Shown in pieces: positions 24,202 through 63,566 of a stretch of 64,000 nt of DNA. Made by a program: the position numbers and the translations under genes. The notes beneath the pieces were generated by a model. It was not told the origin of the DNA and searched no databases. It saw only the letters and a list, made by a program, of their open reading frames with translations. How positions within the stretch are numbered: the first letter of the stretch is position 1; every line of letters starts with the position of its first letter. This stretch comes from Rhodopirellula islandica (GTDB lineage Bacteria; Planctomycetota; Planctomycetia; Pirellulales; Pirellulaceae). Where the stretch lies: the NCBI RefSeq assembly GCF_001027925.1, contig NZ_LECT01000038.1, positions 124,001 to 188,000 of the forward strand, read 5' to 3'.

Positions 24202-24231
24202 TCGCGATTCCGCATACCAGCCCCGTTTCCG

Positions 24232-25287
24232 CACACCAGCCCCCTGAGCGACGACAGCCGCAAAAGCCACGAAGTGGCGGCAGGTTCTAGCCATTGGCGT
24301 CAGCCAATGGACAACGCAGCAAACGATTTCCCCAAGTCCCGAAATGGACGACAGGTCGCACACCCCAATCCGCTCCTGTCACCCCTTCGGGGTTTCCCGG
24401 CTGCCCGTGATTTCGTGTCCACAGGCTGACGCCTGGGGCGACAACCTGTCACCGCTCCGCGGCTGCACCTCCGCACACCAGCCCCCTGAGCGACGACAGC
24501 CGCAAAAGCCACGAAGTGGCGGCAGGTTCTAGCCATTGGCGTCAGCCAATGGATAACGCAGCAAACGATTTCCCCAAGTCCCGAAAGGGACGACAGGTCG
24601 CACACCCCAATCCGCCCCTGTCACCCCGTCGGGGTTTACCAGTTGCCCGCGATTTCGTTCCCACAGGCTGACGCCTGTGGCGACAACCTGTCACCGCTTC
24701 GCGGTTGCACCTCCGCACACCAGTCCCAGAGCGCAACAACAGCCGAAACAGCCACGAAGTGGCGGCAGGTTCTAGCCATTGGCGTCAGCCAATGGACAAC
24801 GCAGCAAACGATTTCCCCAAGTCCCGAAAGGGACGACAGGTCGCACAACCCAATCCGCTCCTGTCACCCCTTCGGGGTTTCCCGGCTGCCCGTGATTTCG
24901 TGTCCACAGGCTGACGTCTGGGGCGACAACCTGTCACCGCTCCGCGGTTACACCTCCGCACACCAGCCCCAGAGCGCAACGGCAGCCGGAACAGCCACGA
25001 AGTGCCGGCAGGTTCTAGCCATTGGCGTCAGCCAATGGACAACGCAGCAAACCATTTCCCCAAGTCCCGAAAGGGACGACAGGTCGAACACCCCAATCCG
25101 CTCCTGCCACCCCTTCGGGGTTTCCCGGCTGCCCGTGATTTCGTGTCCACAGGCTGACGCCTGGGGCGACAACCTGTCACCGCTCCGCGGCTGCACCTCC
25201 GCACACCAGCCCCCTGAGCGACGACAGCCGCAAAAGCCACGAAGTGGCGGCAGGTTCTAGCCATTGGCGTCAGCCAATGGATAACGC
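24232..25287. repeat. 242/243-bp tandem repeat array, about 4.3 copies
   Basis: Copies begin with cacaccag at 24232, 24474, 24716, 24959 and 25202 (spacing 242, 242, 243, 243); the last stops near 25287. Each unit holds several short palindromes: ccattggcgtcagccaatgg, ccacaggctgacgcctgtgg (perfect in the copy at about 24661), ccccttcgggg and accgcttcgcggt. Copies differ by point changes. Open frames on both strands (for example 24643-25260) exist only because the repeat lacks stops, and the 242-base spacing breaks them. No gene or CRISPR structure is present. Confidence 0.92.
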
Positions 25288-44190: not shown

Positions 44191-44350
<160 letters not shown>

Positions 44351-44417: not shown

Positions 44418-44422
44418 AAAAA

Positions 44423-44530
44423 TCCGGCAAGACCTACTTTCACGCTGGTGGGCACTATCATCGGCTCTGAAAGCTTGACTACTGTGTTCGGAATGGGAAC
44501 AGGTATAACCTTTCAGATATGATCGCCGGA
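44423..44530 (-). rRNA. rrf: 5S ribosomal RNA
   Basis: Read on the minus strand, it begins tccggcgatcatatctgaaa and ends gtcttgccgga; the ends pair as the terminal stem. The conserved central part, cccattccgaacacag then gtagtcaagc, is typical of loops B and C. The length is about 108 bases, with ends set by the stem and uncertain by a few bases. Confidence 0.93.
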
Positions 44531-44567
44531 AAGACCTCACGACGAATGTTTCGCCGCCGTAAGGCCA

Positions 44568-44582
44568 GTTGTTTGGTAGTTG
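44568..44582 (-). other. 3' arm of the putative 23S precursor processing stem
   Basis: gttgtttggtagttg (plus strand) is a perfect 15-base reverse complement of 47837-47851. The two sit on either side of 23S, so the precursor would form a long-range stem of the sort cut by RNase III. Confidence 0.6.
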
Positions 44583-44639
44583 AACAAGTTAACTTCTTGA
44601 AGCCGATCCGATTGGACCGCATGAGTGCGGGATATCGGT

Positions 44640-47530
<2,891 letters not shown>

Positions 47531-48344
47531 GAAATCCCGAACTCAAAACGCAGACCCGAACCACACCCTCTTGCGAGAGCATCGAACTGGCACAACATCT
47601 TGGTTTCAAGCTTCAGTGCTATCTAGTTAACGATATCACACAGTGGCTCAACACTTCTCATCGAGAAGCTGCTGAACCGCTCAAGAATCCAATCAGAATC
47701 AAATCACTGCCGTCAGTTTCTTTCGAAACTCTCTTGCAGCGACGCTTCCGAAGAACTTATTACCCTACTGACAAATGCTCCTGAACCCCGGAAAAAGGTT
47801 CACTCACATCCGTCGCATGGTGCTCTTTTCAGATGCCAACTACCAAACAACCAAATTTTCAAAAATCAATTTCCCGGATGCTCGCTAGGCGAGGACCCGA
47901 GAGACGCTGCTAAAAACAGCCGGTCAATCTCTTGCGTTGAGCGTTAGAGATCAGCCGGTCGCTTTTAAGCGAGCGAGGAAGTTAGCGACTTGCTAACTTC
48001 GAGTCAAGGGGAAGAAGCGATGAATTTTTAAAAAGTTTCAAAGCTGACTTCAACTTGTTTGCCGCGTTGCAGACCTTTGCTCAACCCTTTGAAAGAGTGT
48101 CGCAGAGACTTGCTCAGCGGCGGGACAGGAAAGATAGCGAGCCGGCGATTCTGGTCAACCCCGTCTTGTCTCATTTCTGAAGAAAACTTTGATTCTTCGT
48201 GAAGTGTTTCAGACGGAAGCGTCTCAGAAGCAAACCGGGACTTCTCATCCCTGCTTGTTTCCAGTCACCCGCAGTGAGCGGGTGTCTTTCAACTTTCGGC
48301 TTTCCTCACCCTCTGACTTGAGTCAGTTTGTGATTTCAACCAAG
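47531..48344 (-). other. Long spacer between tRNA-Ala and 23S
   Basis: About 815 transcribed bases with no gene. Apart from the processing-stem arm at 47837-47851 there are small inverted repeats such as gaagttagcgacttgctaacttc near 47978-48001, written here with its arms gttagc/gctaac. It is much longer than a normal tRNA-23S spacer. Confidence 0.7.
47837..47851 (-). other. 5' arm of the putative 23S precursor processing stem
   Basis: Perfect 15-base partner of 44568-44582. It lies about 300 bases before the mature 23S 5' end, so processing would leave a long leader to be trimmed. Confidence 0.6.
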
Positions 48345-48417
48345 TGGAGGTAGACGGACTTGAACCGACGACATCCTGCTTGCAAAGCAGGCGCTCTCCC
48401 AACTGAGCTATACCCCC
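48345..48417 (-). tRNA. tRNA-Ala (anticodon TGC)
   Basis: On the minus strand the acceptor arm is gggggta / tacctcc with one G-T pair. The D arm is agctcagttgggagagc, the anticodon loop is ctttgcaag with TGC, and the T arm contains ggttcaagtcc. 73 bases; CCA is not encoded (the discriminator A is followed by ctt). It lies 78 bases downstream of tRNA-Ile. Confidence 0.97.
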
Positions 48418-48495
48418 GTGGTGTTGAGCTCCGAGGAGGAAGGGTGACGTTCCGTTTCAGAACGGGAACCTCACCCTGCCACCTCGAACCTCGAG

Positions 48496-48569
48496 TGGGC
48501 GTGCCAGAACTCGAATCTGGGACCTCGTCGTTATCAGCGACGCGCTCTAACCAACTGAGCTACACGCCC
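48496..48569 (-). tRNA. tRNA-Ile (anticodon GAT)
   Basis: On the minus strand the acceptor stem is gggcgtg / cacgccc. The D arm is agctcagttggttagagc, the anticodon loop is ctgataa with GAT, and the T arm contains gattcgagttc. 74 bases; CCA is not encoded. It is the first gene of the operon after the candidate promoter. Confidence 0.97.
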
Positions 48570-51816: not shown

Positions 51817-53250
51817 TTACGGATTCAAAAGCAGATGCTCGGCAGCGATTCGTCCGCTGTCCATGGCCCCCTGAATGCTGGGCGTCTGACAGTGATCGCC
51901 CGCGATCCACACCCCTGCCCTACCCTGCCCTGCCCCGCTGTCGTCTGCGGAAGGAGCTGCACCCGATGACATTTCGGGTAGAGACACATTGCCGTCTCCT
52001 AAGTTCGCCCGCCGCCAATCTTCCCACGCAGGTGATTTCACCACCGTGTCCAGTGACATTTTCGGTAGCGAATAGGGAACTCGAAAAACACGCAGCAGTC
52101 TCCACCGCATCGCCTCTTCCCCGAACCAATCCTTCAATTGCGATCTCACTCGAGCATCCAGGGCCTCGTCGTCCAGACCGTCCGCTGGCTCATGATCGCT
52201 GTCGACGCTGATCGAAACCAACGCCTTGCCAGGCGGCGCGTACGACGGCGCCACATCGCTCAACACCACGGCACTCTGAATCGGCCCCGACTCATCGCCT
52301 CGCAACATCAGCAACCGATGCGAATCCGGTGATTGTTCGGCCGAGTAATACAAATTGGTCGTTCCGAACCAGGGCGTCGCGATGGACTCCATCCCCAACA
52401 ATCTCGCCGCCGCACTCGCAGGCGTCGCGATCACCAGGTGCCGGCACATCACCGCCGTCCCATCGGACAACACCACTCGGTGCCTGGCATGACCTGGCAA
52501 CTCACTCCCAACCGCGGCCCGCTCCGATTCCGAAAGCGACTCGATGGATTTCACGGTCGTACGAAATTGCACCGATCCTCGCGGCAACGATTCTGCCAAC
52601 TGCCGGGGAATCGCCGCCATTCCATCCGCGGGAACGGCAATCTCGCCACGGGCAAACATCCGAAACACAAACTCCAACATCCGGCTGGACACCGAAAGCG
52701 ACTCATCCAAGAACACCCCGCCCAAAAACGGACGGAAGAACTGGTCAATGATTCGTTCACTGAAACCCTCCGCTTGCAAGCGATCCATGGTCGATGACGC
52801 TGGTCGCTCGTACAAATCCGACAAGGAACCACGCAAGCTGTCCCGACGCAATTTCGCGATCCGCAGCTTGTCCGCCAAGGAACCAACGGGATTCATCGCC
52901 GACGGGATCGCTTGCCCCGGTCTTCGCCAGGGATCTCCCAAAACCCGAAACTGACCGTTTTGGCGGATCAAGGCCCCAGGTTCGAAGGGACGCAACCGCA
53001 GCCCGTCATAATCCAGAAAACGCCGGCAGGCGGGATACGCCGTGAGCAGAACTTGAAAGCCATGGTCCAGCGTGAACCCGTCGACCACGTCACTGCGAAC
53101 GCGACCACCCACCCGATCGGTCGCTTCCAAAATCCGAAATTCGCGGCCCGCCTCTGCCAACACGCGACCGCACGTCAGCCCAGCCAATCCTCCACCGATG
53201 ATCAACGTTTCCGTGAATGATTTGTCGGTGAATGATTCCGAATCACTCAT
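51817..53250 (-). CDS. FAD-dependent amine oxidase/desaturase-like oxidoreductase
   Basis: A 477-residue flavoprotein. The ADP-binding fold '[20 protein letters not shown]' and '[20 protein letters not shown]' define the NAD(P)/FAD-dependent amine oxidase, protoporphyrinogen oxidase and phytoene desaturase superfamily. The C-terminal FAD contact is '[20 protein letters not shown]'. The substrate is not evident. ATG 53250 overlaps the preceding MBL stop as ATGA, which also fixes the start; the frame upstream belongs to the neighbour's antisense. Confidence 0.88.
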
Positions 53251-54581
53251 ATCAGGTGGTAACCCTTGGCGGTCAGTTTTTGAGTCAACGCTCGCTTGGC
53301 GGCGTAGTCGCCGTGCACCAATCGAATCTCCTTGGGTGCATCGGCCATCCCGTCGACCAACGCGATCAAATCTTGCTGATCGCCGTGCGCTGAATAACCG
53401 GTCAACTGATGCGTTTTGGCTCGCACATCGTATCGGCGACCATCCAAACGCACCCAGTCGCTCCCGCGAGAGATGTGATTTCCCGGCGTGCCTCCCGCTT
53501 GATAGCCCGCAAACACGATGTCGGTCTCTTCTTGGCCAATGAACTCTTTGAGGTAATTGACCACCCGCCCTCCCGTGCACATGCCACTTCCGGCAATCAC
53601 CACCGCGGGCAGTTTGTGCTGGGACAAGTACCGAACTGTTTCTTTGTGTTCGGTGTGGCTGCCGACCGTCGTCAGGTTTTCGAACACCAGCGGTTGATCG
53701 TCGGTTTCCAGTGTCACCTGAGCCTCTTCGCCCCAGTGCGATTTCATTTCCTTGTACAGCGCGGTGAAACGCGAGGCGAGTGGCGAATCGACGATCACAT
53801 CGACTCGTTTCATCAGCGTTCGATGTTCCGTCTCTTGAATGCGTTCAAAGATGGCGTTGAGCTCATACAACAACGCCTGGGTACGCCCCAGCGAAAAGGC
53901 CGGCACGATGGTCACGCCCGAATCATCCAGTGTTCGCCGAATGACTGCCTCCAGTTCCGCTTGCCGATCGGCCTTGGGTGGATGCAACCGATCCCCGTAA
54001 GTGCTTTCGAGCACCAACAAATCCGCTCGCTCTGGACTGACCGGCGGATTCAAAAGCGGGTTGGTTCCCGCTCCCACATCACCACTGAAAACAGCCCGCC
54101 GACCGTCCGCCAATTCGATCTCGAACATGGTCGACCCCAGCACGTGACCGGCCGGCAACAACCGGACCTTCACCCCGCCGGGACAGTCATGCCACTGATG
54201 GTAAGGGAGCGGCACCAACAGCTTTCGAATTTTCCCCAGAAACTGCTTGATCAGCCGCTTGGAACGCGTGAACCCAATCTTCAAGGCGTCTTCCATCACC
54301 AGCGGCAACAACTTCGCCGTCGGAACACTGCACAGGATGGGATGGCTGAATCCCGCCGCCAACAAATAGGGAATCCGGCCCGCGTGATCGATGTGCACGT
54401 GAGTCAGCAACAGTGCCTGGATCCCTCGGAGCGAAAACTCGATCTCAGGGTTGGGCCTCTTCCGAGCGTCCTCGCCTTGGAACAAGCCACAGTCAACCAA
54501 CAAACTCTTGGAATCATCGACCCAAAGTTGGTGACAAGAACCAGTGACACCGTCGTGTGCACCGTGGTGAACCAATTTCAT
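53247..54581 (-). CDS. MBL-fold RNA-specificity (CPSF73/beta-CASP-like) nuclease
   Basis: A 444-residue metallo-beta-lactamase with a beta-CASP region, from ATG 54581. The metal site includes 'LLTHVHIDHAGRIPYLL' (HxHxDH), 'LLPAGHVLGSTMFEI', 'FSGDVGAGTNPLL' and 'TYGDRLHP'. The beta-CASP part has 'VIAGSGMCTGGRVVNYLKEF' and a late His in 'GYSAHGDQQDLIALV'. Such proteins are zinc RNA endo- or exonucleases (YSH1/RNase J relatives). It leads an operon with a flavin oxidoreductase and a RecA-like ATPase, an unusual partnership. Confidence 0.92.
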   Translation of the reverse strand: MKLVHHGAHDGVTGSCHQLWVDDSKSLLVDCGLFQGEDARKRPNPEIEFSLRGIQALLLTHVHIDHAGRIPYLLAAGFSHPILCSVPTAKLLPLVMEDALKIGFTRSKRLIKQFLGKIRKLLVPLPYHQWHDCPGGVKVRLLPAGHVLGSTMFEIELADGRRAVFSGDVGAGTNPLLNPPVSPERADLLVLESTYGDRLHPPKADRQAELEAVIRRTLDDSGVTIVPAFSLGRTQALLYELNAIFERIQETEHRTLMKRVDVIVDSPLASRFTALYKEMKSHWGEEAQVTLETDDQPLVFENLTTVGSHTEHKETVRYLSQHKLPAVVIAGSGMCTGGRVVNYLKEFIGQEETDIVFAGYQAGGTPGNHISRGSDWVRLDGRRYDVRAKTHQLTGYSAHGDQQDLIALVDGMADAPKEIRLVHGDYAAKRALTQKLTAKGYHLI

Positions 54582-54774
54582 AAGCGACATCAGAAGCAAG
54601 ACAAGGAGAAACAACGCGAGCGGTCCGTCACATCACCGCAGCAGTTTACCACGCGGGGAATGGGTCGAGGGCCCGCAGCGAGATCCCGCCCGATGACCAA
54701 ACGTGTCACGCCTCCGTCCGATGTCTTGGGTGTCGCCGCTTCTCCCCCCTTCGAAACACCCCAGGACACCTCCC

Positions 54775-55143
54775 ATGGCCAAGTTTTACGTGCAATCAGG
54801 TACTTTCCGCAGTGTTGTCGCCGCTGACTCGGCTCGCAAAGCCGCTTTGTGGGCGGTCCACCAAGTCATGCAGCAAGTCCTGCCGACGGACGAAGACAAC
54901 GACTCACTGCCCGCATCCGGGACCAACAACAACCCCGCCAGCCAGTCGCCAGACTGCCAGTCCCCCGCCAGCCAGCCCGCTGGATCCACGCCGGTCGCGG
55001 TCCTGGACGGCCGAGTCCGAATCAGTGAACGCGGTTACGATCGCAACGACTGCGCCGAGATGCCGACCATGGAAGTCGTCGCGGAGTGGAACCAGATGGT
55101 GCTCACCCTCGATCGACTGCAACAAATGATGCGGCGTGCGTGA
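54775..55143 (+). CDS. Small protein of unknown function
   Basis: From ATG 54775 the product has 122 residues: a structured N-terminus ('AKFYVQSGTFRSVVAADSAR', 'KAALWAVHQVMQQVLPTDED'), a Ser/Pro/Asn-rich linker, and a second short structured part ('VLDGRVRISERGYDRNDCAE', 'VVAEWNQMVLTLDRLQQMM'). No family recognised. The frame extends upstream to 54703 without support. Confidence 0.6.
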   Translation: MAKFYVQSGTFRSVVAADSARKAALWAVHQVMQQVLPTDEDNDSLPASGTNNNPASQSPDCQSPASQPAGSTPVAVLDGRVRISERGYDRNDCAEMPTMEVVAEWNQMVLTLDRLQQMMRRA

Positions 55144-55341: not shown

Positions 55342-56421
55342 ATGGAGATCCAGTTGTTAACCCAGCATCGACGAATCGCTCTGCTCACCGATGGTGCCTC
55401 CACGCCGTTCCTGGCCAAGACCGCCATCAGCCTGTTGCGTTATCGCAGCCCTGACATGGTTGCGGTGATCGACCAAGAGCATGCGGGCAAAACCTCAGCG
55501 GAACTGTTCGGTGCAGGCGACGCCCCCATCGTCACTCAGTGGTCGCCCGAATTGGACTGCGATGCGATCTACATCGGCATCGCCCCTCCCGGAGGCAAAC
55601 TCCCCCACGCCTGGCGTCCTCAACTGGAAGCCGCCATTCGTGCGGGCGTCGATGTGGTTTCAGGACTTCACGACTTCCTTTCCGAAGACAGCGAATGGTG
55701 TCACCTCGCGAAGCAGTCGGGGTCTCAAATCATCGATGTCCGCAAGAACCACTGGAAAGAAACTGCCACCGGGAAACCCTTCCGTGAAGAGTGCGTTCGC
55801 ATCCATGCAGTCGGGCACGATTGCAGCATCGGCAAGATGGTCACGACAATCGAAATCGATCGAGGCCTTCAAGCCGCAGGCAAATCGTCCCGCTTCCTCG
55901 CAACTGGCCAAACCGGAATCATGATTTCCGGCCGCGGCGTTCCCGCGGACTGTGTCGTCTCCGACTTCGTCAACGGTGCCGTCGAATACCTGGTGCGTGA
56001 CAACGACGACGCGGATTTCCTGATCGTGGAGGGACAAGGCAGCATTTCCCACCCGGCCTATTCCGCGGTCACCCTGGGCTTGCTGCATGGCTGTGCCCCA
56101 CAGGGATTGGTGTTCTGCTACGAAGCCGGTCGCAGCGAAGTCAAAGGATTCGATGGTTGTGCCATCCCACCGCTCGAGCAACAGATGCAGGCAATCGAAC
56201 AACTCGCGAATTTGCGTGGACCTTCCAAGTTCATCGGTGTTTCAATCAACACTCGAAACCTGTCGCTTGAAGATGCCAAACGCGAAGTGGAACGAGCCGA
56301 ACATCGATTCGGTTTGCCGGCCTGCGACGTTTACCGCGACGGTGCTGACAAACTGGTTCAAGCCGCGTTGGAACTGCAAACCGCATGCGTTCCCAGCGCC
56401 CTGCAGGAGACCGACGCGTGA
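55342..56421 (+). CDS. dgcN: DUF1611 family protein, DgcN-like (D-glutamate N-acetyltransferase type)
   Basis: A 359-residue protein with an N-terminal Rossmann-like part ('RIALLTDGASTPFLAKTAIS') and a P-loop-type 'HAVGHDCSIGKMVTTIEIDR', the DUF1611 hallmark. Later come 'TGQTGIMISGRGVPADCVVS' and 'IVEGQGSISHPAYSAVTLGL', with 'CYEAGRSEVKGFDGCAIPPL' near the end. Characterised relatives (DgcN) acetylate D-glutamate and work with an enolase-superfamily partner, which is exactly the next gene (GTGA overlap at 56418-56421). Function here is by family and neighbour. Confidence 0.82.
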   Translation: MEIQLLTQHRRIALLTDGASTPFLAKTAISLLRYRSPDMVAVIDQEHAGKTSAELFGAGDAPIVTQWSPELDCDAIYIGIAPPGGKLPHAWRPQLEAAIRAGVDVVSGLHDFLSEDSEWCHLAKQSGSQIIDVRKNHWKETATGKPFREECVRIHAVGHDCSIGKMVTTIEIDRGLQAAGKSSRFLATGQTGIMISGRGVPADCVVSDFVNGAVEYLVRDNDDADFLIVEGQGSISHPAYSAVTLGLLHGCAPQGLVFCYEAGRSEVKGFDGCAIPPLEQQMQAIEQLANLRGPSKFIGVSINTRNLSLEDAKREVERAEHRFGLPACDVYRDGADKLVQAALELQTACVPSALQETDA

Positions 56422-57467
56422 CACTGACCATGTATCCAATTCGCTTGCCCCTGCGAGACCCGTTCACAATCTCGCGAGGAACCATCACGCACCAAGACAG
56501 CCTGGTCGTCGCGTTGGAACATGGCGGGATCACGGGCTACGGCGAAGTCACCGCCAACGACTACTACGGGCACACGCTTTCCGCGATGAGCGATGCTCTA
56601 AAAAGCCTGAGCGAGGACGATCTGGCGATGTGTTGTGAGCACCCGCCGGAGAACCATTGGCAGCGTCTATCAGAGCAACTCGGCGGTGACATGTTCTCGC
56701 TGTCAGCACTGGACATGGCCAGCCACGACTGGCACGCACGAAGTTCCGGATCGACGCTTTGGCATTACTGGGGACTGACATGGAACCCCGATCTGCAATC
56801 CAGCTTCACGATTGGCATCGATTCGATGGAAGAGATGCGGCGAAAGCTGGACGCCGACTCCGGCTGGGACCTCTACAAGATCAAACTGGGCACCGAATAC
56901 GACCTGGAAATCATCCGCCAACTTCGTCAATGCACCACGGCGACTTTTCGCGTCGATGCGAATTGCGCCTGGTCGGCTCAACAGACAATCGACTACTCAA
57001 AAGAACTTCGGCACTTGGGCGTTCAATTCATCGAACAACCCCTGCCCCGCTCCGCCGATCCCGCTGACAAGCAACGCGTGTTCGAAGAATCATCGCTTCC
57101 AATCATCGCGGATGAAGACTGCCAAACCGAAGCCGACTTGAAAACTTGCTTCGAATTCTTCCACGGAATCAACGTCAAACTTTGCAAGTGCGGCGGGCTG
57201 ACCCCGGCTCGCAAGATGCTGACCGAAGCCAAACGGCACGGCAAACTCACGATGGTGGGCTGCATGGTGGAATCGCCCATCGGCATCAGCGGAGCCGCCC
57301 AGCTCGCGCCGCTGCTCGATTTCGCCGATTTGGATGGGGCGAATCTGATCTCAGACAGCCCCGCCCATGGCGTTGAAGTCATGCGTGGGCACCTGAAGCT
57401 GCCAGTCCAATTGGGAACCGGTGCGGAATTGGTCCCCACCGCCCTGCCCCACTTCCTGATCCAGTGA
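56418..57467 (+). CDS. dgcA: Enolase-superfamily epimerase/racemase (DgcA or L-Ala-D/L-Glu epimerase type)
   Basis: About 349 residues from GTG 56418 (overlapping the DUF1611 stop) or ATG 56430. Muconate-lactonising subgroup motifs are present. The first catalytic Lys is in 'DLYKIKLGTEYD', the metal ligands are in 'FRVDANCAWS', 'FIEQPLPRSA' and 'IIADEDCQTE', and the second Lys is in 'NVKLCKCGGLTPARKM'. These enzymes epimerise the alpha-carbon of dipeptides such as L-Ala-D-Glu, or racemise N-acetyl-glutamate (DgcA). The DgcN-like neighbour favours the latter, but a beta-lactamase/VanX gene 58 bases on fits peptide substrates too. Confidence 0.88.
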   Translation: MTLTMYPIRLPLRDPFTISRGTITHQDSLVVALEHGGITGYGEVTANDYYGHTLSAMSDALKSLSEDDLAMCCEHPPENHWQRLSEQLGGDMFSLSALDMASHDWHARSSGSTLWHYWGLTWNPDLQSSFTIGIDSMEEMRRKLDADSGWDLYKIKLGTEYDLEIIRQLRQCTTATFRVDANCAWSAQQTIDYSKELRHLGVQFIEQPLPRSADPADKQRVFEESSLPIIADEDCQTEADLKTCFEFFHGINVKLCKCGGLTPARKMLTEAKRHGKLTMVGCMVESPIGISGAAQLAPLLDFADLDGANLISDSPAHGVEVMRGHLKLPVQLGTGAELVPTALPHFLIQ

Positions 57468-57525
57468 ACCACTCAGCAATCCTCTGCTTCCTGTGTTTCG
57501 TTTCACCCAGCCACAACGCACGATC

Positions 57526-59973
57526 ATGAACCACGAACAGCTCTCCGGTCACATCGTTCCGAAACGATCCCCCGTCCCACCGACGCCCTTCGTTGGACGG
57601 AACAGCCGAGCAGCTTCAGCGAGCTGGCTGGCAGGAATTGCGTTGGTGTTCATGACTTCGACCTCCCTGCATGCCGACGAATCACCCGCGGCAAACGCCA
57701 CGGAGCATGACTACCGCCAACTCATCGAGCAGCTGAACCAGTCGATTCGTTCCGAGATGGGACAGAAACAAATCCCAAGCTTCTCGATCGCCTTGGTGGC
57801 GGATGGGAAGGTTGTCTCCTCCGCAGGATTTGGATTCCAAGACACCAGCAAAACGGTCCCAGCATCCGGGCAAACGGTTTATCGAGTCGGCTCGATCTCC
57901 AAGCTGCTGACCGACGTCGCCTTGATGCAACTGGTCGAGAAAGGTGAACTTGATTTGGATCAACCCATCCAAAAGGTGTTGCCTGAATTCAAGATTGCCG
58001 ATGCCGAACACACTTCGAAAATCACGCTTCGGCAACTGACGCAGCACCGCGCCGGCATCGTCCGTGAATCACCGGTGGGGAACTACTTCGACCCCACTGA
58101 ACCAAGCCTCGAAGCAACTGTCGCCAGCCTTGCAAGCACGCCATCCGTTTATGCTCCGGGCAGTCGAACGAAGTACTCCAACGCGGGCGTGTCCGTCATC
58201 GGACAGGCGGTCGAGCGAGCCGCCGGGATGCCGCATCCCGACTACGTCCGAGAACAGGTGCTCAAACCACTTGGGATGAAACACACCAGCTTCGAAAAAG
58301 ACAAAGCCCTGGCAAAGCACACCGCCGATGGTTGGATGTGGGGCTATGACCGCCCAGCGTTTGCCGCCCCTGAATTCCTGCTGGGCACCGGTCCCGCAGG
58401 GAACCTGTATTCCAGCGTCGAAGACCTGGCCCAGTTCAGCTTGTTCGTGATGGGGCAGCATCCCAAGAAAATTCTCGAGGACGCTTCGCTCACCGAAATG
58501 CTGCAACCCGGTGAGACCCCCGATGGGAAGCCATTGCCCTACGGAATCGGTTTTCGAATCAGCGACTTTCACGGCCATCGTCGTGTCGGTCATGGAGGGG
58601 CCGTGTATGGATTTTCAACTCAGCTCGAAATCTTGCCCGCTGAACAGATCGCTGTCATCGCTGCCAGCTCACTCGACGGAACGAACAACTGGATCACTCG
58701 CATTTGCGATCAAGCACTTGCGGGCATGCTCGCCGTCCGAAGCGGCAAAGAAATCCCACCCTCCGTCTCCACCGAGCCAGTGCCCCGCTCACGGGCTCGT
58801 AGCTTGGCCGGCGTCTACTCCTCCAGGCCCGGCGACGCCTCTCGAACGGTGACGGTGGACTGGATCGGCGACCGCCTGCTGCTGTGGAAGGGAACGTTCC
58901 AACGAGAAATCCGCAGCCGCTCGGACACGGGCGAACTGGTCCTGGACGATCGCTTTGGGTTCGGCACAACGATCCGACAAGACAAGTCATACCTGGTCAT
59001 CGACGATGCGACCTACACGCGACTTTCCGATGCTCCCCCGCCAGAAATTCGCGACGAATGGCGAGACCTCATCGGGGAGCACGGCTGGGACCACAACACG
59101 CTTTACATCCTCGAACGCCACGGCCAACTCCACGCTTTGATCGAGTGGTTCTATTACTACCCGCTCACCCCGGTTGGTAAAGATCGCTTCGCATTCCCCG
59201 ACCACGGCCTTTACCACGGCGAAGAGCTGGTTTTTCAACGTGACGAATCAGGCGAGATCACAGAAGTCATTGCCGCCCAGGTCGCCTTTCAAAAACGCGA
59301 GGTGGGAACCAAAGCTGGCGAGACCTTCAAAATCAAGCGGGAACTTCCGGTCGAAAAACTGCGTGAGCTCGCCGATGCCGCGAAACCTCCTCATGAAGAA
59401 GGCAACTTCCGCCCGTCGGATCTGACCGAACTGACTTCGCTTGACCCCAGCATCGAACTGGACATTCGGTACGCGACGACGAACAACTTCATGGACACGG
59501 TTTTCTACCAGCAACCGCGAGCGTTCGCTCAACGTCCCGCCGCCGAAGCCGCTGTGAAAGTGCACCAGGAACTCGCAAAGCAAAACTTGGGTCTGCTCAT
59601 TTACGATGCCTACCGACCGTGGCGAGTCACCAAGATGTTCTGGGACGCAACTCCTAGCGAAATGAAGAACTTTGTCGCCAACCCGGCGCAGGGTTCACGG
59701 CACAATCGAGGCTGCGCGCTCGACCTAACCTTGTTCGACCGCTCCACTCGCGATCCCATCCCAATGGTTTCCGGGTACGACGAGTTCAGCAAACGTTCCT
59801 TCCCGCTGTATCCCGGTGGCACCCAGCGACAACGTTACTACCGCGGCCTGCTTCGACGAGCGATGGAGTCCGCCGGTTTTCAGGTGTATGAGTACGAATG
59901 GTGGCACTTCGATTTCGACGGCTGGCAGAAGTATCGAATCGGCAATCTTCCCTTCGAAGAAATTACCAACTGA
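57526..59973 (+). CDS. Exported serine beta-lactamase-like domain fused to VanX-type D-Ala-D-Ala dipeptidase
   Basis: About 815 residues from ATG 57526 (GTG 57493 possible). Leader 'WLAGIALVFMTSTSLHADES'. The first domain (about 40-400) is a class C/penicillin-binding fold: Ser-x-x-Lys in 'YRVGSISKLLTDVAL', Tyr-x-Asn in 'TKYSNAGVSVIGQA', and 'GHGGAVYGFS' for the third motif. A beta-rich linker follows. The last about 200 residues are a zinc D-Ala-D-Ala dipeptidase of the VanX/DdpX family: 'DIRYATTNNFM', 'YDAYRPWRV', 'SRHNRGCALDLTL' (SxHxxGxAxD) and 'YEYEWWHFDF' (ExxH). It would cut muropeptide or D-Ala-D-Ala peptides outside the cytoplasm. Confidence 0.92.
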   Translation: MNHEQLSGHIVPKRSPVPPTPFVGRNSRAASASWLAGIALVFMTSTSLHADESPAANATEHDYRQLIEQLNQSIRSEMGQKQIPSFSIALVADGKVVSSAGFGFQDTSKTVPASGQTVYRVGSISKLLTDVALMQLVEKGELDLDQPIQKVLPEFKIADAEHTSKITLRQLTQHRAGIVRESPVGNYFDPTEPSLEATVASLASTPSVYAPGSRTKYSNAGVSVIGQAVERAAGMPHPDYVREQVLKPLGMKHTSFEKDKALAKHTADGWMWGYDRPAFAAPEFLLGTGPAGNLYSSVEDLAQFSLFVMGQHPKKILEDASLTEMLQPGETPDGKPLPYGIGFRISDFHGHRRVGHGGAVYGFSTQLEILPAEQIAVIAASSLDGTNNWITRICDQALAGMLAVRSGKEIPPSVSTEPVPRSRARSLAGVYSSRPGDASRTVTVDWIGDRLLLWKGTFQREIRSRSDTGELVLDDRFGFGTTIRQDKSYLVIDDATYTRLSDAPPPEIRDEWRDLIGEHGWDHNTLYILERHGQLHALIEWFYYYPLTPVGKDRFAFPDHGLYHGEELVFQRDESGEITEVIAAQVAFQKREVGTKAGETFKIKRELPVEKLRELADAAKPPHEEGNFRPSDLTELTSLDPSIELDIRYATTNNFMDTVFYQQPRAFAQRPAAEAAVKVHQELAKQNLGLLIYDAYRPWRVTKMFWDATPSEMKNFVANPAQGSRHNRGCALDLTLFDRSTRDPIPMVSGYDEFSKRSFPLYPGGTQRQRYYRGLLRRAMESAGFQVYEYEWWHFDFDGWQKYRIGNLPFEEITN

Positions 59974-60086: not shown

Positions 60087-61916
60087 TCATCGGTGAAGGT
60101 CACGTCCGACGGCCCATGGCAGAATCAAAACTCTCGCCAGCGGTATCACCAAAGCAATCACCATCGCGATCGGCAGCAACGTTGGTGTCCAAGTTCCCCA
60201 CGATTCGCTTAAGACGATTTGTTGGGGCAACAAACCCAGCAAAACAGCGGAAAGCAACCCAACGGTGACACACCACACCGCGACTGATTTTGTGATCCAA
60301 GTTTTGGGTGTCCCCGGTTGCCGAATGGCCTGCACGAAAGCCACCAAGACCGTGGCCACCTTCGCCCATAGCAACCAAGTGACCCAAGTTGGAATTTGCA
60401 AAACGCCAAGTCGAAACTCCTGCAGCATGACCTCCCACTCACTTTGGCTGACGAACCAAGATCCCAAGCGATAAGATCCCCAAATCAACAGCCCACTGGC
60501 CAAGAACGTGACCGAGGCCGTGACTCGGCGATCGGCCATCAACGCCAACCACAACATGGCCACGCCTCGCCCAACCAAAATCACGGTTGAGAACATCGCA
60601 ATCGCAAGTGAGACCCGAACTCCCATCGCAACAGAACTCACTCCGGTACCCGATGCCATCGACTCGGACCATTGATTCCACACCGGCTGATTGGCAGGAA
60701 CCGAAAAGACCCCCAGCACGCCAAACGTGACCAACGACGCCAACAACACCAACCGTGTTGTTCGCCACACTTTGATTGCCGCTAAGACCTCTCGCGAAAC
60801 CGGGCTGACCGCCAACAACAACGGCATCGCCCTGCCCTGCGGACCTCTTTTCACACCGCTGCTCTCTCCCCAACCGCCCGCCGTCGACACCGCGGTGTAC
60901 GTCAACACGATCAAACCAGCGATCACAACGGAAGCAAAATTCAGCGGCAAACAAGCCAGCAAGACCAGTGTGGGCACACCGACCCACGCGATCATGGACC
61001 ACCGCATGGCACGTGACTGACGACCGTCAAACCAGGCCAGCGTCGATGCTTGCCCACTCTTCCGAACCGACGCCCGCACACCGAGAATCCGCTCGCCAAT
61101 CGAAGACGAAGACTCACGAATCCTCGCCGTGATCGAACCCGCATCATCCAATCCATACGAGTTGGCTCGGGCAAGCTCAAGTGATCGATACGTGCCCCAA
61201 AGAGTTCCACCCCAAAGCAAGAGCAACGGCCATGGCAAATACCCAAGCAGCATCCATTTCGGATGATCCGTATCCAAGGCGACGAACGGCCAACACATCA
61301 CCATGTATCCGGTCGGAATCAGCACCAGCAAAGTGAGGACTCGATACCCGTTCCAAGAAAATGGTCGCCAACAAAACGCCAACACCGCCATGGATCCGGT
61401 GCCGAGTGAAATCCACAAGGCAGGATAGATCCAACGCTCATGTTCACTGCGGTCCACCATCGACAACTCAATCGCGGACGCGATCATCAACAACGAGATC
61501 GCAATCGCCGCATGCCGAGCCACAGCGGCGACCAACACCAATCGGCTCGATGGAACCGGACTGCGCAGCAGGAATGCGTCGAATCCAGAGGCTTTCCGCT
61601 CCACGTCCGGTCCCGACCAATCAATTGCGAAAATTGACCACAACAGCAACGGGGCTTGCGTCACCGCCATGACCCCCGCGATCGCATTGGACGCCAACAA
61701 AACATCCGTCCCAAACAATCGGTGTATCCACGCGGCCAGGGCGACACCAACCAAGGACAGCAACCAAAGCTTTCTCCACGTCCCGCCCCAGCGAGCCCAA
61801 AGCAACCGCGCGGCAGCAAGACAGTCCTTTTGCCAATCGTTCCGACGGTCGCTGTCGAACGTGTCATTCGCGGGCAAACTAGCCCCCGTCGATGGCTGAA
61901 TGGTCGATGCGTTCAT
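60087..61916 (-). CDS. ABC transporter permease-like membrane protein
   Basis: 609 residues from ATG 61916, which overlaps the ATPase stop. About 14 membrane segments are spread over the length, for example 'LWLLSLVGVALAAWIHRLF', 'TLVLLACLPLNFASVVIAGL' and 'LAIAMFSTVILVGRGVAMLW'. No soluble domain of note. The size and the ABC ATPase gene beside it fit a YtrC/ABC-2-like permease. Together with the GntR gene it makes a three-gene operon. The substrate is unknown; Ytr-type systems respond to cell-wall stress. Confidence 0.82.
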   Translation of the reverse strand: MNASTIQPSTGASLPANDTFDSDRRNDWQKDCLAAARLLWARWGGTWRKLWLLSLVGVALAAWIHRLFGTDVLLASNAIAGVMAVTQAPLLLWSIFAIDWSGPDVERKASGFDAFLLRSPVPSSRLVLVAAVARHAAIAISLLMIASAIELSMVDRSEHERWIYPALWISLGTGSMAVLAFCWRPFSWNGYRVLTLLVLIPTGYMVMCWPFVALDTDHPKWMLLGYLPWPLLLLWGGTLWGTYRSLELARANSYGLDDAGSITARIRESSSSIGERILGVRASVRKSGQASTLAWFDGRQSRAMRWSMIAWVGVPTLVLLACLPLNFASVVIAGLIVLTYTAVSTAGGWGESSGVKRGPQGRAMPLLLAVSPVSREVLAAIKVWRTTRLVLLASLVTFGVLGVFSVPANQPVWNQWSESMASGTGVSSVAMGVRVSLAIAMFSTVILVGRGVAMLWLALMADRRVTASVTFLASGLLIWGSYRLGSWFVSQSEWEVMLQEFRLGVLQIPTWVTWLLWAKVATVLVAFVQAIRQPGTPKTWITKSVAVWCVTVGLLSAVLLGLLPQQIVLSESWGTWTPTLLPIAMVIALVIPLARVLILPWAVGRDLHR

Positions 61917-62908
61917 GACACGGACTCCATCGAGGCATCTTCGCGGCCTGACATTTTGTCCGAATGATCCCCAGCCGTCGCTGACTGCCGCGGGGCTCGC
62001 ACATGAGCTTCGAACAATCGCTTCAGCGTCACATGACGACTTTCGATCCATTGCCACTCGGGCGGCAGTGTTGCGGGCGACAAATCGGATTGCCGGGGCA
62101 CCAACAGCGACCATTCACCGTCTTCCTGATGCCAGCCCAAACCTGCTTCCACCGGACAATCTCTCCGAGCGTGCTGCGTCGTGATCGTCTCGTCACGTGA
62201 TCGCAAGATCCATTCTTCGTAGCGTTCGTCGACCGCCATCATCGGCATGGATTCAATCAGTTTGCCCTGATGCATGATCGCGACTTGATCACACACTCGG
62301 CTGACTTCGTCGAGCAAGTGACTGCTGAAAATCACAGTCCGGCCTTCCAAGCTGACTGTCCGAATGATCGCTTGCAAAATGTCATCGCGAGCGATCGGGT
62401 CCAGCCCGCTGCCGGGTTCATCCAAAACCAACAAGTCCGGCTTGTGAGCGATCGCGGCAATCAAACCCGCTCTTGCTCGACCGCCCTTGGAGAGCGAACG
62501 AAGTTTGGTGTCCGGTGACAACTCGAACCATTCACATAGTTCCGACGCGTACGCTCGATCCCACCTCGGATAGATCGCTTCGCAAAATCCCGTCAGATCA
62601 CGGACTCGCATCCAAGTCGGCAAGCTGTCTTCTTCAGAAAGGTACCCAATTCGCCGCATCACTTTTTCCCGATCGGTGATCGGGTTGCATCCCAGCACGC
62701 GGACCCTGCCGACTCGCGGTTGATGCAAACCCAACAAGTGACGCAGCAAAGTTGTCTTGCCGGCACCGTTGAGTCCCAGCAACCCAAACACGGTTCCCTG
62801 CGGGATCTTCAGCGAAACATCGTCCAGTGCTTCCGTCCGGCCGAATCGTTGACTTAGGTTTTCGACCACCACGGCGTCCGGCACCGACGACTCTTGAACA
62901 TCGTTCAT
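61913..62908 (-). CDS. ABC transporter ATP-binding protein
   Basis: 331 residues. Walker A 'LLGLNGAGKTTLLRHL', Walker B 'DLLVLDEPGSGLDPIARD' and the switch His in 'VIFSSHLLDEVSRVCDQ' are present. The signature is 'LRSLSKGGRARAGLIAA', with LSKGG in place of LSGGQ, as in the YtrB/YhcG-type branch that partners with GntR regulators. A C-terminal extension of about 90 residues is Gly/Trp/Arg-rich. It overlaps both neighbours by four bases and lies between the regulator and the permease. Confidence 0.95.
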   Translation of the reverse strand: MNDVQESSVPDAVVVENLSQRFGRTEALDDVSLKIPQGTVFGLLGLNGAGKTTLLRHLLGLHQPRVGRVRVLGCNPITDREKVMRRIGYLSEEDSLPTWMRVRDLTGFCEAIYPRWDRAYASELCEWFELSPDTKLRSLSKGGRARAGLIAAIAHKPDLLVLDEPGSGLDPIARDDILQAIIRTVSLEGRTVIFSSHLLDEVSRVCDQVAIMHQGKLIESMPMMAVDERYEEWILRSRDETITTQHARRDCPVEAGLGWHQEDGEWSLLVPRQSDLSPATLPPEWQWIESRHVTLKRLFEAHVRAPRQSATAGDHSDKMSGREDASMESVS

Positions 62909-63300
62909 GACGATTCCCCCCGTTTGCGTTGCAACTCTTCATCGCGACGGAGAATCCATTGCGACAATTCTTTCGCATCCACGCCCAGCCCTTGCGAGAG
63001 CACGAGCAATTGATCGATCGCGGGCTCAATCGCTTCCCGCTTTCCTTTCGCGGACATCGACGTTGGCGATGATGAGACAAACGTGCCTCGGGTGCGACGT
63101 TTCTCGACCAAGCCCGCTTGTTCGAGTTCGCGATAGGCTCGCGCGATGGTGTTCGGATTGACCCGCAATCGCTCCGCCAACGTTCGGATGGCGGGCATCT
63201 CGTCTCCGCCGGAAAGCTGGCCCGACAGAATTCGATGTCGAATCTGCTGGACCACTTGCTGGTAGAGCGGCACGCCGTCGTCGGATAAATGAATCTGCAC
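62905..63300 (-). CDS. GntR-family transcriptional regulator, YtrA subfamily
   Basis: 131 residues with an N-terminal winged helix: 'DGVPLYQQVVQQIRHRILSG', 'LAERLRVNPNTIARAYRELE' and 'GLVEKRRTRGTFVSS'. The C-terminal part is short and helical, as in YtrA. The GTG 63300 start has AGGGG seven bases upstream. Its stop overlaps the ABC gene start. An operator-like palindrome lies over its own promoter (63311-63332), suggesting autoregulation of the whole operon. Confidence 0.92.
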   Translation of the reverse strand: MQIHLSDDGVPLYQQVVQQIRHRILSGQLSGGDEMPAIRTLAERLRVNPNTIARAYRELEQAGLVEKRRTRGTFVSSSPTSMSAKGKREAIEPAIDQLLVLSQGLGVDAKELSQWILRRDEELQRKRGESS

Positions 63301-63457: not shown

Positions 63458-63566
63458 CGAGCAATCGAGCAATCGAGCAATCGAGCAATCGAGCAATCGA
63501 GCAATCGAGCAATCGAGCACGAGCACGAGGGCGAGGGCGAGGGCGAGGGCGAGGGCGAGGGCGAGG
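63458..63566. repeat. Octamer and hexamer tandem repeats
   Basis: About seven copies of cgagcaat (63458-63513), then cgagca(c), then about seven copies of gagggc to 63566. A related inverted segment, ggtgctcgtgctcg, lies at about 63432-63446. It sits between the divergent GntR and ECF sigma genes. The minus-strand frame gives a repeated 'RLLDCSIA' peptide that is an artefact. Confidence 0.93.

Follow-up and report, generated by a model that had tools for sequence, protein, structure and literature searches.

The closest described counterpart of the genes studied here is the DgcN-DgcA pair of Pseudoalteromonas sp. CF6-2, reported by Yu et al. in the ISME J in 2023, in which DgcN reportedly acetylates D-glutamate (D-Glu) and DgcA racemises N-acetyl-D-Glu. 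In PMC12363236 and PMC10845958, the DgcN-DgcA pathway is described as a route from D-Glu to L-Glu, and PMC12363236 places dgcN in 32 class-level clades of a Mariana Trench set. Here we examined a stretch of 64,000 nucleotides (the window; contig NZ_LECT01000038.1, positions 124,001 to 188,000) from the draft genome of the planctomycete Rhodopirellula islandica (7.43 Mb in 55 contigs; completeness 99.94%, contamination 4.27%), in which a DUF1611 protein and an enolase-superfamily racemase are followed by a fusion of an S12 serine hydrolase with an M15 dipeptidase. Judging from sequence, we consider it just probable that these three genes constitute a small unit for using the D-amino acids of peptidoglycan peptides, with D-Glu handled through N-acetylation and racemisation.

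The initial annotation had described three consecutive plus-strand genes at 55342-59973, the first two overlapping by GTGA and the third starting 58 bases further on; coordinates, strands, overlap and gap are all exact. The features are as follows.

55342-56421, plus strand: DUF1611 protein, DgcN-like candidate D-Glu N-acetyltransferase (359 aa; Pfam PF17396 and PF07755)
about 55477-55746, plus strand: DUF1611 N domain (Pfam)
about 55762-56358, plus strand: P-loop-like DUF1611 C domain (Pfam)
56418-56421, plus strand: GTGA overlap of the stop codon (TGA) of the DUF1611 gene with the start codon (GTG) of the racemase gene
56418-57467, plus strand: enolase-superfamily (MLE subgroup) racemase/epimerase (349 aa, GTG start; MR_MLE domains)
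57468-57525, plus strand: 58-base gap between racemase and fusion genes
57526-59973, plus strand: S12-M15 fusion, apparently exported (putative; 815 aa)
about 57736-58683, plus strand: S12 serine hydrolase part of the fusion (Pfam Beta-lactamase, residues 71-386)
about 58684-59421, plus strand: linker region of the fusion, no Pfam match
about 59422-59916, plus strand: M15 D-Ala-D-Ala dipeptidase-like domain of the fusion (Pfam Peptidase_M15, residues 633-797)

The GTGA overlap suggests that translation of the first two genes may be coupled. This pair matches that of CF6-2 in its two families, gene order, strand, gene overlap and conserved DUF1611 positions. Unlike the CF6-2 pair, it is joined to an S12-VanX fusion, no DgcR-type LysR regulator stands among the scanned flanking genes, and the window racemase falls in another clade; identity is 34% for DgcN and 27% for DgcA, with the window proteins under the equivalog cut-offs. 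The racemase also shares its fold, catalytic lysines, metal ligands and D-x-D motif with the L-Ala-D/L-Glu epimerases YcjG of E. coli and BT1313 of Bacteroides, and YcjG, too, sits by a peptidoglycan gene (mpaA). Here, however, a DUF1611 protein takes the place of MpaA or NlpC/P60, and the BT1313 relative of this genome is a different gene. The fusion resembles VanX and DdpX in its M15 domain, with zinc ligands, arginine and glutamate in the expected motifs. In contrast to those enzymes, this domain sits behind an S12 domain and a linker in an apparently exported (putative) protein and scores under the cut-offs, and no vancomycin-resistance-type gene was seen among the scanned flanking genes. 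The parts are known, and their combination with a two-headed, putatively exported enzyme looks new. A search of the planctomycete literature (peptidoglycan recycling, D-Ala-D-Ala dipeptidase, AmpG) gave no paper whose title concerns a cluster of this kind, a weak negative with subscription literature mostly outside it; the available parts of a methylofuran polyglutamate paper (PMC8141765) and a review of the Planctomycetes-Verrucomicrobia-Chlamydiae (PVC) bacteria (PMC5147048) hold no link.

Conservation and neighbours of the DUF1611-racemase pair

To count the pair we took 196 genomes from the order and required E ≤ 1e-70; weaker matches, in 4 of the 80 genomes with DUF1611 and 7 of the 85 with the racemase, are thereby left out. 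Both genes are present in 75 genomes, DUF1611 only in 1, the racemase only in 3 and neither in 117 (totals of 76 for DUF1611 and 78 for the racemase). The corresponding Fisher value, 2e-49, takes no account of common descent and should not be read as a true probability. Out of 93 DUF1611 matches in the order, 60 loci from 52 genomes were examined. In 51 of them the racemase follows DUF1611 on the same strand at a distance of no more than 300 bp; in the remaining nine it is on the other strand (1) or absent from the stretch (8, G140 among them). Additionally, a profile scan yielded 582 confirmed matches, the best 80 of which we refer to as named loci. They come from planctomycetes, Verrucomicrobia, Chloroflexi, Gemmatimonadetes, cyanobacteria, haloarchaea, Proteobacteria and other groups. 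A same-strand racemase no more than 300 bp away accompanies 53 of the 80, and in 48 of these 53 it is downstream. Several of the other 27 are near contig ends, and no fewer than five of the named loci (L127, L128, L131, L133, L164) apparently also belong to genomes of the order set. The pair is the conserved core of the locus, and it is deeply conserved. Neighbourhood in related genomes had been fixed beforehand as a point on which the initial proposal turned, and here the proposal holds up: the pair is adjacent in many phyla, and the triad recurs in ten genomes, this one included.

Both domains of the DUF1611 protein are over their Pfam gathering cut-offs (DUF1611_N, E 1.3e-28, 99.6 bits against 22.6; DUF1611_C, E 5e-76, 255 bits against 25), and its PDB matches are 7xrj (E 2e-62), 2obn and 2g0t. 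Alignment with seven relatives (four planctomycete, CF6-2, Ruegeria, Haladaptatus) gave 46 invariant positions, among them a P-loop-like G-x-D-C-x-x-G-K stretch. The earlier label "DgcN-like" stands as a likeness; membership of the DgcN family itself fails, because the protein scores under the NCBIfam cut-off. The racemase contains MR_MLE_N (E 5.2e-9) and MR_MLE_C (E 7.3e-29) domains, two lysines and Asp/Glu/Asp ligands, as expected of an MLE-subgroup racemase/epimerase. Its catalytic set, previously described as intact, is indeed retained (K154, K156, D180, E206, D232, K257, R20 and D304-x-D306), and 106 of the 112 racemases collected have all nine of these residues. With single-residue roles here and in the fusion assigned from the families, we take K156 and K257 to be the catalytic lysines and D180/E206/D232 the metal ligands.

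The neighbours of the pair in the order were catalogued by clustering 80 neighbourhoods and scanning one member per family against Pfam. Those that recur are a XylR-type regulator, GHL10, an AmpG-like MFS permease (a label from likeness, the Pfam assignment being MFS_1/BT1), a GH3 NagZ-like enzyme, a class A beta-lactamase with PG_binding_1 and S11 carboxypeptidase, M19 dipeptidase, M14 carboxypeptidase, S66 LD-carboxypeptidase, GGT, AnmK, a BadF-type ATPase and an NhaC-family antiporter. Eight recycling families were chosen (NagZ, AmpG, GHL10, beta-lactamase-S11, M19, S66, GGT, AnmK), and three or more of them occur in 17 of the 60 pair loci, against none of 23 fusion-only loci, which contain no member of the eight; the figure of 17 is descriptive and not a test, because the families were picked from those same 60 loci. 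None of 11 class- or phylum-level pair loci reaches two of the eight. Also encoded in some recycling clusters (L057:14537-15876 and similar; families F29/F19) are two small membrane proteins of the "Gate" (nucleoside recognition) type; we find them reminiscent of SpmA/SpmB, and they perhaps act in transport.

The CF6-2 pair is flanked by an NhaC-family antiporter, an M14 peptidase and an amidohydrolase nearest NF006560, and genes of the same kinds stand near some relatives of the window pair: among the 60 order loci, relatives of the antiporter occur in 9, of M14 in 3 and of the amidohydrolase in 3. In planctomycetes, as in CF6-2, the pair repeatedly has beside it an amidohydrolase nearest NCBIfam NF006560/PRK09061 (for example L036:10097-12949, fused to a beta-lactamase domain, L216:4298-5881 and L116:884-2455); all of these score under the cut-off of that model, whose CDD title is "D-glutamate deacylase".

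The fusion protein and recurrence of the triad

The third gene had been described as a penicillin-binding fold joined to a zinc D-Ala-D-Ala dipeptidase, and at the level of domains and motifs this description appears sound. Pfam Beta-lactamase (E 2.1e-67) and Peptidase_M15 (E 2e-31; 109.7 bits against a cut-off of 27) were both found, and the motifs S123-x-x-K126, Y217-S-N219, H356-G-G, R697, H726, D733, E791 and H794 are retained. In an alignment of 22 fusions, S123, K126, Y217, N219, H356 and R697 are invariant, and the SxxK, YxN and HxG motifs of the S12 family are present in all. H726, D733, E791 and H794, the zinc ligands and catalytic glutamate expected of an M15 dipeptidase, are invariant in 21, the remaining protein ending at a contig end. 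The M15 part scores under both NCBIfam VanX (NF033115, 77.4 bits against 320) and DdpX (NF007557, 128.1 against 176). The S12 part, which shares its three motifs with AmpH, D-aminopeptidase and class C beta-lactamases, is under the cut-offs of the 25 NCBIfam models listed (of 48 matched; AmpH 101 against 266), so these models point to no one substrate class. A hydrophobic stretch, SWLAGIALVFMTSTSLHA, near residues 33-50 was judged by eye to be a putative signal peptide, and the fusion is apparently exported. An AlphaFold2 model of the fusion, for which one homologue was usable, reached a predicted local distance difference test (pLDDT) score of 37.5 and was not used.

In the order, 22 genomes carry a full-length or contig-cut fusion, 16 with the pair and 6 without; a further 11 of the 33 genomes with fusion matches, whose matches end before the M15 domain, are left out of this count. 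No fusion was found in 60 of the 76 DUF1611 genomes of the order, and the phylum search gave 22 fusion genomes, 11 of them without a DUF1611 match at E ≤ 1e-20. As a partner of the pair, the fusion is optional. Across order, class and phylum, 20 genomes have both the fusion and a close DUF1611 relative (E ≤ 1e-90), and in 10 of these the two lie 1.1-4.1 kb apart (G000, G006, G071, G101, G137, G160, G184, G331, G387, G498). Seven of the ten belong to the order of the window; the other three share its class only and hence come from another order, so that the triad spans two orders. DUF1611, racemase and fusion follow one another in that order, on one strand and gene to gene in the window and at L032, L034, L040, L048, L202, L203 and L204; a single amidohydrolase-type gene separates racemase from fusion at L036 (G071), L039 (G101) and Fuerstiella L123. 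The last, a contig from the order Planctomycetales, adds a triad beyond the ten genomes. Because the arrangement recurs in other genomes, it is not due to chance.

Racemase substrate, wall-synthesis genes and rival explanations

An AlphaFold2 model of the racemase (pLDDT 97.1) has the dipeptide epimerases 3q45 (Z 44.8) and 3iji (Z 44.3) among its best PDB neighbours, with dipeptide epimerases, N-succinyl amino acid racemase and muconate enzymes only a few Z units apart; the search confirms the predicted racemase fold and cannot choose the substrate. A tree of 85 of the 119 sequences, with every third locus taken from L032-L091, was built by a quick method with Shimodaira-Hasegawa-like approximate likelihood ratio (SH-aLRT) support only. 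In it the window racemase groups with planctomycete, verrucomicrobial and kiritimatiellal proteins in one clade (SH-aLRT 100), to which neither the proteobacterial clade nor BT1313 belongs. Importantly, this genome encodes a second enolase (G000:C6, L111:7980-9563, minus strand) that is 66% identical to BT1313 (3iji, E 4.3e-150), 32% identical to the window racemase, and directly adjoins an NlpC/P60 protein with an SH3_16 domain (pair at L111:7980-10366). The two form a separate candidate L-Ala-D-Glu route, with the layout expected for freeing and epimerising the dipeptide; PMC9928106 gives a summary of the standard recycling steps. Because of this separate epimerase beside its peptidase, the window racemase more likely handles N-acetyl-D-Glu than L-Ala-D-Glu, although both racemases of the genome could act on dipeptides. 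The earlier alternative of D-Glu or L-Ala-D-Glu as substrate leans to the former, as N-acetyl-D-Glu, and the latter is disfavoured.

Family models of wall synthesis and recycling were also searched. MurI, DapF, AnmK and M19 have no match in this genome at E ≤ 0.001 (as a control, the same models match in 10, 9, 5 and 4 of 14 genomes, respectively), and MurI is over the cut-off in none of the 196 genomes of the order, with weak matches in 8. According to PMC5885031, most PVC bacteria have no MurI, and DapF has been proposed as its substitute. DapF being unmatched here as well, this genome may use divergent enzymes, or the usual wall may not be made. The genome also encodes an ArgB homologue that, with 228 bits, exceeds the cut-off (a family match only), so N-acetyl-L-Glu has a possible use.

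The pathway that we infer, from its reactions to the transport step and the export of the fusion, would begin outside the cytoplasm. There, going by families and intact motifs, the S12 domain of the fusion would open a D-amino-acid bond in wall peptides and the zinc M15 domain would split D-Ala-D-Ala or a similar dipeptide. D-Glu freed from wall peptides would then enter the cell, where, as the conserved pair suggests, the DUF1611 protein would N-acetylate it and the racemase would turn N-acetyl-D-Glu into N-acetyl-L-Glu, to be deacetylated or fed into arginine synthesis.

Several results weigh against this pathway. The DUF1611 protein scores 274.7 bits with the DgcN equivalog model NF041892, under its cut-off of 480 (CF6-2 DgcN itself 493.4), and the racemase 215.6 bits with the DgcA model NF042940, under 400 (CF6-2 DgcA 412); with the L-Ala-D/L-Glu epimerase model NF011708, too, the racemase is under the cut-off (148 bits against 343). 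Its identity to CF6-2 DgcA is 27%, versus 36% to BT1313, and it retains D304-x-D306, a motif that we take to bind the amino group of a dipeptide substrate and that is present in both DgcA proteins too. CF6-2 DgcA groups with E. coli YcjG (SH-aLRT 81) inside the proteobacterial clade (100), so the tree cannot separate N-acetyl-Glu racemases from dipeptide epimerases. In G140 the racemase sits on a different contig from DUF1611. Pair and fusion are apart in 10 of the 20 genomes with both, at least 100 kb away on the same contig in G015, G140 and G150 and otherwise on different contigs. All 17 recycling-rich loci come from a single sister family, f7, where they make up 17 of 26 loci. Of the eight recycling families, no more than one is present at any of the 28 loci from the window's own family; only GGT (7 of 28) recurs there, alongside an NhaC relative in 6 and a XylR-type regulator in 12. 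Finally, no same-strand transporter, regulator or deacetylase was seen adjoining the triad.

How far do these points favour other explanations? The racemase may instead be an L-Ala-D/L-Glu epimerase like YcjG and BT1313, with the DUF1611 protein performing a further step on the same peptide, which we hold to be somewhat unlikely. BT1313 (3iji) is its best PDB sequence match, dipeptide epimerases are among its nearest folds, D-x-D is retained, the pair has recycling neighbours in the sister family, and the CF6-2 record itself is annotated "L-Ala-D/L-Glu epimerase DgcA". Yet a second dipeptide epimerase is less needed, because a BT1313-type enzyme beside NlpC/P60 is already in the genome; the window clade is separate from that gene and goes almost one-to-one with DUF1611, whose characterised relative reportedly acts on free D-Glu. 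Haloarchaea, moreover, retain the same pair and have no murein.

The D-Glu pathway set out above also has to answer for the fusion, which could be an independent wall-remodelling, D-amino-acid-scavenging or drug-tolerance enzyme lying beside the pair by chance. The fusion genomes without the pair (6 of 22 in the order) or without a DUF1611 match (11 of 22 in the phylum search), the 60 of 76 DUF1611 genomes without a fusion and the 23 fusion-only loci devoid of recycling families all point that way. Such independence is nevertheless unlikely: in half of the genomes with both, across two orders, the fusion is 1.1-4.1 kb from the pair in constant order and strand, Fuerstiella L123 repeats the arrangement, and an amidohydrolase relative occurs between pair and fusion (L036, L039, L123), beside the fusion-less pair (L126, L216-L218) and near the fusion-only L106 and L107. 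Very improbable is a third view, that the pair runs from N-acetyl-L-Glu to D-Glu and supplies the wall in MurI-less cells. It would suit the lack of MurI and DapF matches in this genome and of any MurI over the cut-off in the 196, but 117 of those genomes have neither gene and yet no MurI over the cut-off (8 weak), so the pair cannot be a general source of D-Glu, and with acetyl-CoA as the acetyl donor the catabolic direction is chemically favoured. We keep to D-Glu use through N-acetylation and racemisation. The joint salvage role put forward initially is supported in part, by conservation of the pair and recurrence of the triad; the fusion is optional and, among the 60 loci examined, the rich recycling context is confined to one sister family.

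Genomic surroundings and significance

The triad is flanked by the following genes.

53247-54614, minus strand: beta-CASP metallo-hydrolase gene, upstream
54703-55143, plus strand: 146-aa open reading frame without Pfam match, upstream
60087-62114, minus strand: protein without Pfam match, downstream
61913-62908, minus strand: ABC ATPase gene, downstream
62905-63300, minus strand: GntR regulator gene, downstream

The ABC ATPase and GntR genes are thus on the strand opposite to the triad. Promoter and terminator scans gave no excess of matches over shuffled sequence. Elsewhere in the window, 24228-25287 is a tandem array (243-bp unit, 4.4 copies, 93% matches) containing four Rfam Acido-Lenti-1 RNA matches on the minus strand. 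The 23S and 5S rRNA genes and two tRNAs lie at 44422-48569 on the minus strand, with two 7-bp tandem repeats just downstream of the rRNA genes (44191-44350); no 16S rRNA match was found in the window, and its rRNA genes are apparently unlinked. Perfect tandem repeats of 8 bp (7.8 copies) and 6 bp (6.8 copies) occur at 63458-63566, near the window end.

The peptides may come from the cell's own wall or from a foreign one. The own-wall form of the salvage idea was not borne out, in that the MurI, DapF, AnmK and M19 models have no match in the genome; if the usual wall is not made, the triad could serve for feeding on foreign wall. We tentatively propose, as a possibility that we ourselves doubt, that planctomycetes without a recognised MurI may have a distinct wall-peptide salvage branch, in which exported two-headed D-Ala enzymes and partner hydrolases would set free D-amino acids and D-Glu would pass towards arginine and glutamate via N-acetylation and racemisation, separately from the L-Ala-D-Glu epimerase route of the same genome.

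Wall chemistry and turnover in planctomycetes are poorly known. If true, the D-Glu reading would connect muropeptide recycling with a marine D-glutamate pathway described only recently, and would broaden the range of that pathway to include planctomycetes. It would also give a concrete role that can be assayed both to the DUF1611-racemase pair, widespread from planctomycetes to haloarchaea, and to the S12-VanX fusion.

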